Shown here: one piece after another, positions 433-19,405 of the stretch
Position numbering within the stretch: position 1 is the stretch's first letter
Layout of the letters: each line of letters begins with the position of its first letter
Origin: a virus
IMG/VR virus record: IMGVR_UViG_3300021440_000140
Span: 1-20,951 of that record
Reading direction: 5' to 3' (one strand)
Length of the DNA: 20,951 bases
Notes under the pieces: model-generated
Database searches by the model: none
What the model was told of the DNA's origin: nothing
The model's input: only the letters and a program-made list of their open reading frames with translations
Translations under genes and position numbers: made by a program

Positions 433-1239
433 TCACTCCCACGAAATATTGATTGCGCCAGCGTCGAAGGTTGACCCGCTGACCGAAGTCAGCCGCACCC
501 GGTCCAAGGCAGCGGCCAAGGTGATCGACCCGCCGCCAATCATGACCTTGCCCGTGGACAGGTAGCCGGTATGGGTGCAAAGCCATTTGTTGCTGCCCAT
601 CTGGCGCAGGGTCAGCACGAAGGAAGACGTATCCGCCGCCGCTTGCGTGTCGAAAACGAAACCATCCGTTGCCGCCGTGGCGTGGGTCGTGCCTGCAACC
701 GTAGCACCTTCGGACACATACCCGGCAGTCGTGAAGCCCGAGGTCGTGCCGAGCCTGACAAGCAGGTTGTCGGATGCCGACATGGAAATGCCGTATCCCA
801 TCATATCAATCCGCTTGATCCATGACGGGATCGACGTGAATGAAAACGTTGTTCCCGATGTTGTCGCCTGTTCGGTCTGGTATCCAATCGGATCTGACCA
901 TGCAGACGCGGCAGAGACAGACCGTATGATCTGGCCTTCAACCCCGGCGCTGGACGGGGAAACGATAAAACGCCATGTGCCCCACACCCCGGCAGTCAGC
1001 ACCCGCTGGAAATACATGCTGCTGTTAAGCGGGTGCCACGTCTGGAAACCGTCCGTTGCCGCAGATCGATACATGCCCATGACGCCGCCGTTTGCCGACG
1101 TGTAGCCGGTCGGGAATGTCCCGGTCGTGGCAACCGTTACCTTGTAGCCGATGCCCGCCGGGGTATTCGTGGCGTCCAGATCGGCAATCGTGGTGCCGTC
1201 GCCTGTCGTGCCGATGCCCGCCGCAGCATCCGCAGCCCG
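433..1239 (-). CDS. Distal part of tail fibre, same frame as upstream N-terminal part, beyond an in-frame TGA
   Basis: This stretch continues, in the same frame, the gene that starts at 1611. The codons straight after the TGA at 1242-1240 read RADAAAGIGTTGDGTT, then KVTVATTGTFPTGY, 53 codons before the first in-frame ATG at 1080. The first ATG (MGMYRSAATDG) has no Shine-Dalgarno, and the coding-like sequence upstream of it argues that it is not the natural start. The product from that ATG would be 215 residues. The sequence is rich in Ser, Thr, Gly and aromatic residues (for example TWHPLNSSMYFQ, WGTWRF), as expected for a beta-structured fibre. It should be made only by UGA readthrough or by weak reinitiation, unless the TGA is a mutation or a sequencing error. 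Confidence 0.7.
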   Translation of the reverse strand, partial: RAADAAAGIGTTGDGTTIADLDATNTPAGIGYKVTVATTGTFPTGYTSANGGVMGMYRSAATDGFQTWHPLNSSMYFQRVLTAGVWGTWRFIVSPSSAGVEGQIIRSVSAASAWSDPIGYQTEQATTSGTTFSFTSIPSWIKRIDMMGYGISMSASDNLLVRLGTTSGFTTAGYVSEGATVAGTTHATAATDGFVFDTQAAADTSSFVLTLRQMGSNKWLCTHTGYLSTGKVMIGGGSITLAAALDRVRLTSVSGSTFDAGAINISWE

Positions 1240-1611
1240 TCATGCCGTATCCGTGCCTTCGATGGCCGTTTGCACGTTGGCATAAGGCAGGTTTGTGGTC
1301 GGCGCGAACGTCACCGAATTCGCGCCCGTGCCGACACCGGAAGTCATGCGCACCGGGTCAAGCGTGTAAAGCGTGGCCCCCGCCGAAGTCGTGACCACCA
1401 GCTTTGCCGCTTCGGTCACAAACCGCTGCGGCAAGATGCCGCTGCTGTCGGCAATCGCCGGGTTCGCGGCCAGGATTGTTCCGTCTTGGTCCGTGTAAAC
1501 GTCCAGCAATGTCGTTGTGCCGCTGGCGTAGAAATAGGCTTTCGCGCCCGGCACCGGCAGGCCGTTGGCGTCGAAAACCCGGCCTTGGTTTGTGTCAACT
1601 TGATCAGCCAT
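1240..1611 (-). CDS. N-terminal (virion-binding) part of tail fibre, ending at an in-frame TGA
   Basis: The product is 123 residues from ATG 1611, preceded by a GGGG Shine-Dalgarno six bases upstream and 9 bases after the preceding stop. The sequence GRVFDANGLPVPGAKAYFY, then GTTTLLDVYTDQDGT and ANPAIADSSG, is the conserved N-terminal module found on many tail fibres and tailspikes. It attaches the appendage to the virion. A 123-residue protein would be only this anchor with no receptor-binding part. The gene stops at TGA, but the same frame continues as fibre sequence down to 433, so the intact gene would be 392 residues. The TGA is followed by CGG, giving the leaky UGA-C context. Either the short form is made together with a readthrough form, or the gene carries a nonsense mutation. 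Confidence 0.85.
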   Translation of the reverse strand: MADQVDTNQGRVFDANGLPVPGAKAYFYASGTTTLLDVYTDQDGTILAANPAIADSSGILPQRFVTEAAKLVVTTSAGATLYTLDPVRMTSGVGTGANSVTFAPTTNLPYANVQTAIEGTDTA

Positions 1612-1620
1612 TTTTGCCCC

Positions 1621-3579
1621 TTATTTGGCAGCGCGGTTCGGGTTATTGGCTTCATTGGCCGCAACGCCCATCGCCGGGGTTGCTTCCCGTATCGCCGTCG
1701 CAAGTCTGGAAATGGCCGAAGCCTGTGCGGCACCTTCCGCCCGAGCCACCGCGCGCAACGCGCTGCGCACGCCCGTTGCCTCGTAAACGCGGGCAAGACC
1801 GCCAATCGTGCCAAGACCGCCAAATGTCCCAACGACAGAGCCGGTCATTGACCCGACAAGGCCGGAAATCACAGCGGGGAAATTCATCATCCCCGTAGAT
1901 GTGGCAACGCCCGCCGCCGACGCGTGCTGCGTAAGTTTCAGCGCCTTCATCAGCCCTTGCACGGCTTCCAGATCGCTGCCACTGAACATCACGCCTACTT
2001 GCGTTCCTAGACGCGCGATTTCGGCGCGGAATTTCTCGGGACTGACCGTGTTGAATTCCCCGGCCTTGCTGAATGCCTCTTGAATAACCGCCGTTCGCGC
2101 CGCCGCCTTACCTTCCGGGGTCAGGTTCCGATACAGCAGGGCAATGTCGGACGGTTTCTTGCTGAAAAGCATAGTCCGCACGGCCTCCGGGGTTTCAGCG
2201 CCCTTTTTCAGAACTGCGCCGAGCGCCGTCAGTTTTTCTTCCTTGATCGAACCCGCAATGGCGGTATTGGCAGCTTTCCAGATGCGATAGGCGGCACCGC
2301 CCGCGCTTCCCTTGATGAATGCGCCCATGTCCTCATTCAGCGGCCCATAGACGGCGGAAAGTGCCTTTTCACCAACCGTCCGAAGATCACCCATATCAAC
2401 GAAGGCGTCCCCGATCACCTTGCGGTTTTCTTCAATCACGGGCAGGGTTTTTCCCGTCACCGCAGCCTTGAATTCTTCCAGCTTGTTGATGACGGGTTGC
2501 AGGGAAGACATGCCCTGTTCGGCCAGTTTTGCAATCTGGGCATCAATCGCGGCAATAGCCCGAGGTGCCTCGACAACCCCTTTGATTCCATTGATGACGG
2601 ACGTTTTCCGGCCAACCCATTTCGCCAGATCGGCCCCGCGCTTGGCGATCAGCGAAGCCGTTACATCGGGGATAGCCGATGCCGGAATGTCAGCGCCGAA
2701 TTGCCGGATCACGTCTTGAACAGCGGCAACGCGGGCAGCGTTCTGTTTTGCGCGAACCGGCCCGGTTCCGGCAATCGGGATAGCCTCCCCGGTTTTCTGA
2801 ATGACCTTGCCAGCGAAGGTCTGCGGCGGTTTCACGTCCGTCCGCATGACAGGGATACCGACCTTGTCGGCGGCTGCGATGTCACCGGCCAGGCGCGATG
2901 TTGCCTCAGGAACAGGCTTAGGCATCCGCCCCGCCATCATCGCAACAGACGAGCCACCAGCGAGTTCGGGAACGGCGAATTGCGGCATGGCCGAGAGGTC
3001 TTCGCCAAGGTTCTGACGGCCTGTCCGCGTCATGCCAGGCACAGCATCGACGCCGTAGCCAATCATCCCGTTGATCGCAGCACCACCGGCAGAAAGCGCC
3101 ATGCCGCCAAGATCGCCAACCGCGCCAAGCGTGTTCAACACTTGCGGGTTCCAATCCCGCGTCATTGGGTCATTGGCGAGGAAAGACCGTGACGGGCTAG
3201 GCCCGCCGACAAGCCCGCCCCCGAATGCCTTTGCGGCATCCCAAGGCTGTTGCGCCAGATATGCCGCCGTATCCCCGAAATGCTGCGGCGCGGGCGGCGT
3301 CATTTGCGACGGCAAATCAGCGGCGGGCGGCACCATAACATCGGGCTGGCTACCCAAATACGACATGCGCGCACCGCGATAATCCGGCATGGTTTGCGCG
3401 TATGCCGAAAGCTTGTCTGCCGCTTCCTTGTCGCCCGCTGCCATGGCCTTGCTGGCGGCACTCATCACGGATTGCGCGCTTGGGGTCTGGGCATAGGCGC
3501 GCAGCTTGGCCGCGCCCGCAGCATCACCAGCCTTTTCGGCCCTGTCCGCTGCGGCCAAAATCTCAGCCGTTGTTGCCAT
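1621..3579 (-). CDS. DNA ejection / internal virion protein, P22 gp16-like by position
   Basis: This 652-residue protein occupies the place of P22 gp16 (about 609 residues), the last ejection protein before the adsorption genes. Residues 5-32 and 36-63 form two similar 31-residue units, each with an A..A.....AGD..AA.KL..YAQT pattern. The middle is rich in Ala, Gly and Lys with long helical stretches, and residues about 560-610 hold a Gly-rich hydrophobic region (GLVGSMTGSVVGTFGG) that could insert into a membrane. Such proteins leave the capsid with the DNA and help build a conduit across the cell envelope. Start ATG 3579 has an AAGGTGG Shine-Dalgarno. I see no catalytic motif. The assignment rests on synteny and composition. 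Confidence 0.75.
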   Translation of the reverse strand: MATTAEILAAADRAEKAGDAAGAAKLRAYAQTPSAQSVMSAASKAMAAGDKEAADKLSAYAQTMPDYRGARMSYLGSQPDVMVPPAADLPSQMTPPAPQHFGDTAAYLAQQPWDAAKAFGGGLVGGPSPSRSFLANDPMTRDWNPQVLNTLGAVGDLGGMALSAGGAAINGMIGYGVDAVPGMTRTGRQNLGEDLSAMPQFAVPELAGGSSVAMMAGRMPKPVPEATSRLAGDIAAADKVGIPVMRTDVKPPQTFAGKVIQKTGEAIPIAGTGPVRAKQNAARVAAVQDVIRQFGADIPASAIPDVTASLIAKRGADLAKWVGRKTSVINGIKGVVEAPRAIAAIDAQIAKLAEQGMSSLQPVINKLEEFKAAVTGKTLPVIEENRKVIGDAFVDMGDLRTVGEKALSAVYGPLNEDMGAFIKGSAGGAAYRIWKAANTAIAGSIKEEKLTALGAVLKKGAETPEAVRTMLFSKKPSDIALLYRNLTPEGKAAARTAVIQEAFSKAGEFNTVSPEKFRAEIARLGTQVGVMFSGSDLEAVQGLMKALKLTQHASAAGVATSTGMMNFPAVISGLVGSMTGSVVGTFGGLGTIGGLARVYEATGVRSALRAVARAEGAAQASAISRLATAIREATPAMGVAANEANNPNRAAK

Positions 3580-5589: not shown

Positions 5590-6249
5590 TCAACTCCAGC
5601 TAGAACCGCCGAACAGCGACCCGGGCGCGCCGATGTTGATGCCGAATGATTGGTTGTTCGGTTGCATGGCCCGCTGATACTGCCAAATCCCGAGCATGTT
5701 GTTGATGCCGCCCGTGATGGCGTTGCCCATGCCGATGTTGCCCGCCGCGCTTGCGTTGCCCATCGCGGCAAGGCTGTTGCCGATGCTGTTGGCGCTGTTC
5801 TGCGCTGCGTTGGAATTCATGTTCGCGGCGGAAAGACCCATGCCCGCCAAGCCCGAAAGCCCCGCCAGATAGTTGCCGCGCCGGGTCGATGCATAGTCCT
5901 GCGACCATTGGTTAAGATCACGCATGGCCGCGCCGGAATAAAGCCCGCCCCGCGCCGCCGCCGATGCCTGCACCGCCTTTTGTCCCTGATCCATGCCGAA
6001 CCGGTAATCCTGCGTCTGCCGGAAACCGTCATAACCCTGCGGACGCCCCCGCAGCCCGTATTCATAGGCCAGCGCGTTCTGGGCATTGCGCCCGCTGTTG
6101 TAGAAGGGCCGGTTAAGCCCCATGATCATGTCGCGGGTTTCGCGCTGGTAGTTGATGTCGGCTTGTGCCGCTGCCCGCTGCGATTTGGCGGCACGATTGG
6201 CCGAAATGCCTTGGGCAACAGCCCCGACGATTGCTGCACCTATAGCCAT
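5590..6249 (-). CDS. DNA ejection protein, P22 gp7-like
   Basis: The product is 219 residues, near P22 gp7 (about 229). It starts with a hydrophobic helix (MAIGAAIVGAVAQGI), followed by a charged coiled-coil segment (residues about 17-50, NRAAKSQRAAAQADINYQRE) and a Gly/Ala/Asn/Ser-rich C-terminal half. This architecture is typical of small ejection proteins that open the series gp7, gp20, gp16. I chose ATG 6249 over the in-frame ATG 6261. A perfect GGAGG at 6259-6255 sits five bases before 6249, and the stop of the GNAT gene overlaps it as TAATG. The longer start would put the Shine-Dalgarno inside the gene. Confidence 0.8.
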   Translation of the reverse strand: MAIGAAIVGAVAQGISANRAAKSQRAAAQADINYQRETRDMIMGLNRPFYNSGRNAQNALAYEYGLRGRPQGYDGFRQTQDYRFGMDQGQKAVQASAAARGGLYSGAAMRDLNQWSQDYASTRRGNYLAGLSGLAGMGLSAANMNSNAAQNSANSIGNSLAAMGNASAAGNIGMGNAITGGINNMLGIWQYQRAMQPNNQSFGINIGAPGSLFGGSSWS

Positions 6250-6620
6250 TACAGCCTCCATCCATACATCAGGACGCCGGGAAACCCGCCGTCACGTTGC
6301 CAGCCAAGCCGGGTCAGCAGCGAAACAACCGCACGGTTGCTTTCCGCCACCCAGGCAATCAGCCGGTCAGGTTCATGTTCGCGCCAGATTTCCCGCAACA
6401 GGCGGTTGATCGGCTTTTCCGTTCGGCCCCATGCCGAAGGAACAACGCCCAAATGCACCATCAGCACGCCCGGCCAGAGCGCGTTGTGGGCAATCAGGCA
6501 AACCCCGCTATCAGCGTAATATTCGGCCCAGTCCGGCAGATCGGCATCGCCAAGCATGGAAGCCTTGCGCTGCGAAGGATGATCAAAATACCGCCGCGCC
6601 TCGTCACGCCCTATGCGCAA
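6249..6620 (-). CDS. GNAT-fold head protein in the P22 gp14 position
   Basis: This 123-residue protein has a GNAT-like layout: VLMVHLGVVPSAWGR (central beta strand and following helix), then LIAWVAESNRAVVSLLTRLGWQRDG, the usual NR..SLL..LGF motif. It lies between a gp26-position gene and the gp7-like gene, exactly where P22 has gp14, which to my recollection belongs to the same fold (DUF2824). The acetyl-CoA loop usually reads Q/RxxGxG; here the region is AWGRTEKPINRLL, so catalysis is doubtful and a structural role in head assembly is more likely. The start is TTG 6620; no ATG lies before residue 22. An ATA at 6614 is an outside alternative. The upstream gene overlaps by 10 nt. Confidence 0.72.
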   Translation of the reverse strand: MRIGRDEARRYFDHPSQRKASMLGDADLPDWAEYYADSGVCLIAHNALWPGVLMVHLGVVPSAWGRTEKPINRLLREIWREHEPDRLIAWVAESNRAVVSLLTRLGWQRDGGFPGVLMYGWRL

Positions 6621-17509: not shown

Positions 17510-18190
17510 CTATGAAGCGTGCGGGACTATCCGCACCCAAATGACCGCCTGCCCGCGCTTGCCCATGGCATCAATCAGCCCGTCATTCCGCAGCCGGTCG
17601 ATGATGCGGGCTTGCGATGATTTGCCGAGTTGCATCGCCTCGCCCAGTTCGCGGGCGGTGCGCGGTTCGGCCAGCAGGGAAAGCGCGATGGTCAGTTGCG
17701 CGCGGAAAGCCTCGGTCGTGTTTTGCGGCTCGTCGATATGCCGTGCGGTTGCCAGCAAGAACCGATCAACCCGCTTGCGCGCCCGGTCGGCGGGCAGCAT
17801 GGCGATCTTGCCGCGCTTCACCAGTTCGGCGCAGGTGGCGAAAACCATCGCGCGGGATAGCCCGGTGTTTTCGTGCAGCCAATGGCCCGACACCGGGAAA
17901 GCCGACATCTTCGCCATGATCCGGTCAATGCTGGCTTGCGTGGCCTGGCCTTCGATGCGGGGCGTGTATTCGGCCATATGCGGCACCCCGCGCCGATGCC
18001 CTTCGGATTTGGCCAGTTCCGCCCATTTCGCGGCAACGGTCAATTCGGTGCGCATGGCGTGTTGCGGGGTCAGGCGTGAAAGGTCGCAGGCATAGGGCGC
18101 GAAGTCAGGCAGCGGGCGGGCGGGGAAGCGTTTGACGCCGGGTCCGACTGCGATTGTGCCTGCGGGCATGATTGGGTTGATCGCGTTCAT
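17510..18190 (-). CDS. Putative DNA-binding protein with two winged-helix-like regions
   Basis: This 226-residue protein starts at ATG 18190, overlapping the upstream stop as ATGA. Two helix-turn-helix-like regions are visible. Residues about 90-135 include SGHWLHENTGLSRAMVFAT and AELVKRGKIAML. Residues about 165-222 include RTARELGEAMQLGKSSQARII and DRLRNDGLIDAMGKRG, followed by the beta wing QAVIWVRI. The second region is a good winged-helix pattern of the kind found in transcription or replication proteins. It closes the replication block. It could bind the origin or regulate transcription; no family name can be given with confidence. Confidence 0.65.
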   Translation of the reverse strand: MNAINPIMPAGTIAVGPGVKRFPARPLPDFAPYACDLSRLTPQHAMRTELTVAAKWAELAKSEGHRRGVPHMAEYTPRIEGQATQASIDRIMAKMSAFPVSGHWLHENTGLSRAMVFATCAELVKRGKIAMLPADRARKRVDRFLLATARHIDEPQNTTEAFRAQLTIALSLLAEPRTARELGEAMQLGKSSQARIIDRLRNDGLIDAMGKRGQAVIWVRIVPHAS

Positions 18191-18864
18191 TCGTTCTCTC
18201 CGAAAACTTCTTTGATGATTTCTGCGGCGCGGGCGGCGGTGACACGTTCGCGCTGTTCCATGCGTTCACTGGGCGTCCCGCACTCCAGCGCGCGGATCAT
18301 GGCCCGGCGCGGCGCGGCCAGCGTGTTGCACCTGGCTTCGAGTTCCGACCATGAAGGCCAAAACTTCCATCCGCCGTTCAAAACGGCCTCGCGCGCCACG
18401 TCTGCCGGATATGCCCGCAACCGCGACGCATAGGCTTCAAGGCGCAAGGCTTCGGAAAACTCGTCGTCCTGGCGTCGGGCGGTGATAACCGACAGTTCTG
18501 CAAGCCATGCCTCGATTGACCTGGTTTCCGCTTGCGCTTCCAGTTTGCGAATTGCCGATAGGGCTTCGGCGCGGGCTTCCTCTGTTCCGCCGACTTCGCA
18601 GGATTTCACCCGCGCAACAGTTGGCAAGGAATTGCCCCGTTCGTCGCGGGGAAAACTGTAATCAAACGATACCGAGAGCCTGACGCCGAGCTGCGATGCT
18701 CGCAAGACTGCTGCCTTGTCCACCTCTGCCGGGGAACGCTGGCCCAGCCACTCGGCTACCCGCAAATTTTCTTGCGTTGCTGAGCCACGTTCTCCAACCG
18801 GCATCCCAGTCTGCGAAGGTTGTTCCTTTTGAAAGGTGGTAATCGCGGAATGCAGTTGCTTCAT
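18187..18864 (-). CDS. Replication-region protein with YPADVAREAL...WPSWSELE motif, function unproven
   Basis: From ATG 18864 the frame gives 225 residues. The last 160 look strongly coding: VARVKSCEVGGTEEARAEAL, a coiled-coil stretch KLEAQAETRSIEAWLAELSV, then LRAYPADVAREAVLNGG and FWPSWSELEARCNTL (about 160-180). The last pattern is one I associate with proteins encoded after DUF1376 genes in phages; helicase loading is possible but not shown. The first 203 nt overlap the end of the DUF1376 gene. ATG 18864 has AGGA nine bases upstream, but a TTG at 18705 would cut the overlap to 44 nt, so the start is uncertain. It ends in an ATGA overlap. Confidence 0.65.
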   Translation of the reverse strand: MKQLHSAITTFQKEQPSQTGMPVGERGSATQENLRVAEWLGQRSPAEVDKAAVLRASQLGVRLSVSFDYSFPRDERGNSLPTVARVKSCEVGGTEEARAEALSAIRKLEAQAETRSIEAWLAELSVITARRQDDEFSEALRLEAYASRLRAYPADVAREAVLNGGWKFWPSWSELEARCNTLAAPRRAMIRALECGTPSERMEQRERVTAARAAEIIKEVFGENE

Positions 18865-19405
18865 GGTCGATTTCCTGCGGTGAAAAGTTGCGGTCGATTG
18901 CGTCGGATATGTTGCGATCAGAAGGAACCCAATTTTCAGGAAGTCGGGTTCTCTTTCTTGGAGAAGCTTTAGCTTCTCTTCTTTCTTTATCTTGATATGG
19001 TTCTGGTTCTGATATGCTAGGGTTTTGCTCTGGCAAAATCGTAGCTTTTGCTACATCAGCATCTTTAGATTTCAATGCTTTAGCCTTTCCGCCAAGACTT
19101 CCAAAGTTCTTCCGTTCCTGCGATAACCGAAGAACCTTTTGGCGATCTTCTGTCAGCCGATCCTGCGTGATCTTGTCGCCATCTACGGTGAAGAAACCTG
19201 CAATTTCAGACCACACTCCAGGCCATCTTTTTGGCGAAACGCGAGTGATGCGGGCCAGCTTGGCGGGGTCATTCGGTAGGGTGGCGTCACCATTCCAGAG
19301 TGCGAACAACAGGAGCAGGTAAGCTCCGTGCTGTTCCGTGGTCAGGTGCAGCGTCTTCTTGATGTAGTCCCCGACATAGAACTGCATATACGGGGTCGCA
19401 CTCAT
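18662..19405 (-). CDS. DUF1376-type phage replication protein
   Basis: This 247-residue protein starts YMQFYVGDYIKKTLHLTTEQHG, then AYLLLLFALWNGDATLPND and RWPGVWSEIAGFF. That is the DUF1376 domain (residues about 5-95), found in phage and cryptic prophage replication proteins such as YdaU. A Lys/Glu-rich linker follows. The C-terminal part TAFRDYHLSKGTTFADWDA, then GWRTWLSNA (about 190-217), is the second conserved element of such proteins. It probably works in origin recognition or helicase recruitment. ATG 19405 has AGGCGGT as a Shine-Dalgarno. The base composition in 18950-19080 is more AT-rich than the surroundings, in the linker. Confidence 0.8.
   Translation of the reverse strand: MSATPYMQFYVGDYIKKTLHLTTEQHGAYLLLLFALWNGDATLPNDPAKLARITRVSPKRWPGVWSEIAGFFTVDGDKITQDRLTEDRQKVLRLSQERKNFGSLGGKAKALKSKDADVAKATILPEQNPSISEPEPYQDKERREAKASPRKRTRLPENWVPSDRNISDAIDRNFSPQEIDHEATAFRDYHLSKGTTFADWDAGWRTWLSNARKFAGSRVAGPAFPGRGGQGSSLASIAARRQALGIV

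Follow-up and report, generated by a model that had tools for sequence, protein, structure and literature searches.

The window analysed here, an entire IMG/VR entry that is 20,951 bases long and is classed as viral, contains PHROG matches to a terminase, a portal, a major head protein, a head closure protein, an endolysin-like protein and a DNA transfer protein. On the minus strand, the gene for the DNA transfer (ejection) protein (1621 to 3579; phrog_770, 1.7e-47) lies upstream of a tail fibre gene (433 to 1611), which is followed by the start of a second fibre-like gene (1 to 429), whose ATG at 429 comes after the fibre stop. This second gene begins MAVDNIAADELPVLDSADLAIVGRASDG and is cut by the contig end, leaving the phage's fibre set incomplete in the record. 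Elsewhere in the window, two minus-strand ORFs in different frames (18187-18864 and 18662-19405) share about 200 bases, and the listed start of the downstream one is probably too early. A small acetyltransferase-like gene (6249-6620, minus strand) lies within the structural operon, and a similar-looking gene is found at 5010-5402 of L002, another IMG/VR contig.

When translated, the minus strand between 1611 and 433 is a single frame running from the ATG at 1611 to a TGA at 435-433. The sole break in this frame is a second TGA at 1242-1240, after 123 codons and thus at residue position 124, where the nucleotide context is GCA-TGA-CGG. The first piece (1243 to 1611, minus strand, 123 amino acids) consists of an N-terminal virion-anchor domain, with 50% identity to the anchor of L002 and 43% to that of a further contig, L003, and the first half of a coiled-coil neck; GGGG is present upstream of its ATG. 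After the stop, the second half of the neck and the start of a knob-like domain (1081 to 1239) occupy 53 codons in which there is no in-frame ATG, GTG or TTG, and the distal fibre follows (433 to 1080; phrog_29482, 1.7e-15). Altogether 268 sense codons separate the two TGAs, an open run whose probability from base composition is about 1e-4. The coding character that the initial annotation had attributed to the 53 codons is confirmed by their mean codon log-odds, computed against the usage in the 20 other genes of the window: they score 0.456, as compared with a mean of 0.380 (sd 0.142) for in-frame 53-codon windows of those genes and of -0.505 (sd 0.252) for off-frame windows, none of which reached 0.456. 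Codon usage remains normal downstream of the internal stop, and no second lesion is present there.

In L002, the orthologous fibre is one uninterrupted ORF of 379 amino acids, with a sense codon at the site. The read-through window fibre aligns to it with 43% identity over residues 1-213, there is no gap at the stop, and the neck continues alike on both sides of it. The genes in L002 are ordered as head closure, acetyltransferase-like gene, short structural genes, transfer protein, fibre, and a second, larger fibre or spike-like gene. From inspection of the ORF lists, in which the DNA transfer gene is placed alike, the gene order appears to be common to both contigs. Anchor homology, the position after the DNA transfer gene and a distal domain common to fibres mark the window gene as a tail fibre with an N-terminal virion anchor. 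Taken with the shared frame, the homology supports a single fibre gene, cut by one in-frame TGA, as the source of the anchor and distal pieces. The earlier claim that these pieces lie in one frame with only this TGA between them is therefore borne out, both by the translation and by the one-ORF orthologue.

The distal part also points to a single gene. By tblastn, 24 phage records have fibre C-termini that match its last 132 residues. Five of these records were read (MW202485, Erebus, RHph_N2, RC1 and MW202711), and in each the matching stretch ends a single uninterrupted ORF of about 340-480 residues; in none of these five reference phages is the domain a stand-alone gene. In MW202711.1 (our locus L070), the deposited annotation omits the fibre ORF (1769-2914 of the locus) and gives short opposite-strand ORFs instead. 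A search of the IMG/VR contigs returned no relative of the distal fibre.

The neck itself can be compared across five homologues. In the window it reads NVQTAIEGTDTA*RAADAAA, the asterisk being the TGA. L022, which has the same anchor domain as the window, has the neck NVQSAVVLSDTNWRSAN, while two necks are borne in other fibres: NVQAAIAETDAGWRAAD in L018/L025, which are the same contig, and NVQAAIQEVDAEYRAAD in L065. In L003, the anchor and first neck half belong to one uninterrupted ORF of about 400 codons. At position 124 there is Ile in L002, Leu in L003, Trp in L018/L025, Trp in L022 and Tyr in L065, a sense codon in every case. L002, L003 and L065 were retrieved without any condition on this codon, while L022 was retrieved only by a pattern demanding TGG or TGA there, its Trp being partly selected for, and L018 was first retrieved with a read-through protein query in which the stop was written as Trp, which gives Trp a slight advantage. 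A pattern search of 2.9 million viral contigs for necks with TGA at the site returned only chance matches in unrelated frames. Searches for a close relative of the fibre (above about 50%) found none, a GTDB scan using the fibre alignment gave no match, and the six of 24 GTDB pattern matches that were read were all unrelated to fibres. The initial annotation had proposed aligning homologues at this codon and had named sense codons in the close ones as half of what would speak against readthrough; with no close homologues found, the distant ones all give that answer. Numbered from the N of NVQ, the stop is at position 13 of the neck, and positions 2, 6, 9, 13 and 16 fit the 4-3-4-3 spacing of heptads. 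The stop would accordingly fall at a core position of the coiled coil, taking the place of a core residue. Structure prediction for the read-through protein gave a mean pLDDT of 32.9, which is unusable, so that a helix at 110-130 spanning the stop is only a hint. L022 and L003 come from different phages and have anchor domains similar to that of the window but distal fibres unlike it; such mixing of anchor and distal parts may be a sign of module exchange at the neck.

Several explanations can be proposed for the stop. It is very improbable that the locus holds two genes, one for a short anchor protein and another for a distal fibre with its own start at the in-frame ATG at 1080: the 53 codons upstream of that ATG are coding and conserved, the orthologue is one ORF, and no Shine-Dalgarno was found upstream of the ATGs at 1080, 1071 or 1018, as the initial annotation had noted for the first of these. 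A restart at the ATG at 1243, which overlaps the TGA, was rejected, since it opens a different frame with an unlikely product of 72 amino acids. Reassignment of UGA to Trp in this phage would suit the site, but it has a negligible probability and is in effect excluded, because TGA terminates most of the genes here (13 of the 20 others, often at the start of the next gene); the contig also has no tRNA gene. More weight, though still very little, can be given to programmed readthrough, which the initial annotation raised as a means of setting fibre number. It supposes that a leaky UGA is kept in the neck so that short anchor and long fibre are made in a fixed ratio, as are the Q-beta coat and A1 proteins, and that Trp insertion would yield a small full-length fraction, tuning the number of fibres per virion. 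The in-frame extension does have coding character and homology running through the stop, its distal part is intact, and the UGA is followed by C. At a programmed site, however, the stop is expected in relatives, usually with a stimulating context. Here all five homologous necks have sense codons, and the stop cuts the neck midway, not after a complete domain. Compared with shuffled sequences, the 113 bases from the TGA show no stronger folding (z = +0.72), making the 3' RNA structure unremarkable. TGA-C is an ordinary stop context in this phage, being found at 7 of 14 TGA-terminated genes (6 of 13 other genes, plus the fibre's own final stop), and the hexamer TGACGG terminates one other gene in the window. 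The initial annotation had called TGA followed by C the leakiest context, as in Q-beta A1. The C is indeed present, and inefficient termination at UGA-C in bacteria has been called well documented (PMC5289835), but the coat stop used for A1 is a UGA followed by A, and A is reported to favour UGA misreading by tRNA-Trp in E. coli (PMC5289835). Programmed readthrough is thus improbable as an explanation of this site.

A nonsense allele that happens to leak is a better candidate, although an unlikely one overall. Near-cognate tRNA-Trp would read the UGA often enough for some full-length fibres to be made and for the phage to stay infectious, and there would be no evolved signal. In E. coli, no stop is read through more than UGA, with Trp as the favoured insert (PMC11126739), and the inefficient termination described for UGA-C in bacteria is a further point in favour. 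Because UGA leaks mainly to Trp, the residue found at this position in L018/L025 and L022, incidental leakage would probably give a working fibre. The downstream part is also free of a second lesion. Against this, little full-length protein would be made, and three full-length chains would be required for each trimeric fibre. Incidental leakage is the most interesting reading that is still plausible, and it requires no evolved mechanism.

The explanation that we consider quite probable is that the stop reflects one nonsense substitution, or a consensus error, and that the tail-fibre gene is intact apart from it. The stop is known from a single IMG/VR record, and a true allele and a consensus error are kept here as one account. 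The initial annotation had mentioned a nonsense mutation or sequencing error as the simpler alternative, and this becomes the best account given the five sense codons, the ordinary stop context and the unremarkable 3' RNA. Its further suggestion of a decaying prophage does not hold: the 20 other genes checked are all open and so give no hint of general decay, nor does anything here indicate a prophage. The absence of a second lesion downstream and the normal codon usage there fit a young lesion. Either a lesion of recent date or some remaining synthesis of the distal part would explain the clean downstream frame; the second of these counts against the nonsense-lesion account, as does the fact that UGA, the leakiest bacterial stop, is mostly read as Trp, the residue of two homologues. 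A recent nonsense mutation of the ordinary kind or a consensus error, and not a programmed way to two fibre lengths, remains most likely. The intact gene would encode one protein made up of virion anchor, coiled-coil neck, knob-like domain and a C-terminal domain that is probably receptor-binding. At the stop, ribosomes would release a product made of the anchor and half the neck; barring leakage, the fibres on the virion would be mostly stumps. From these comparisons, we infer that the stop codon is derived and recent, and that its effect on the virion is of this kind.

These results place the present case among known broken genes and in-frame stops. A lone in-frame stop is common among bacterial genes, and those of the mobilome category have one most often (PMC7918605); selection was tested in that study with groups of close genomes, whereas the window has no such group. 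The Q-beta coat/A1 gene, like the window, has an in-frame UGA and a coding extension in a virion protein gene. However, the Q-beta stop ends a complete coat protein, while the stop in the window cuts a neck whose homologues lack it. Caution is called for, as an in-frame UGA-C followed by coding sequence is insufficient for a readthrough call where UGA-C commonly ends genes. If virions were shown to contain full-length fibre, the gene would be a rare example, for a DNA phage, of dosage set by UGA readthrough. In gene 29 of the Gordonia phages Attis and SoilAssassin, the lesion is a frameshift and two isolates can be compared, whereas the window has a nonsense codon. In the side tail fibre gene (stf) of lambda PaPa, compared with Ur-lambda, a point lesion likewise breaks a long tail-fibre gene, and the other virion genes are intact; the case is described in PMC4929510, which cites Hendrix and Duda (1992). 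The lambda lesion is a frameshift that arose in a laboratory strain and whose plaque effect is known, while that of the window is a nonsense codon in an uncultivated phage. If the stop is indeed a nonsense allele, then the window would add, alongside the lambda side tail fibre, one more receptor-binding fibre gene that was caught in a broken state in nature.
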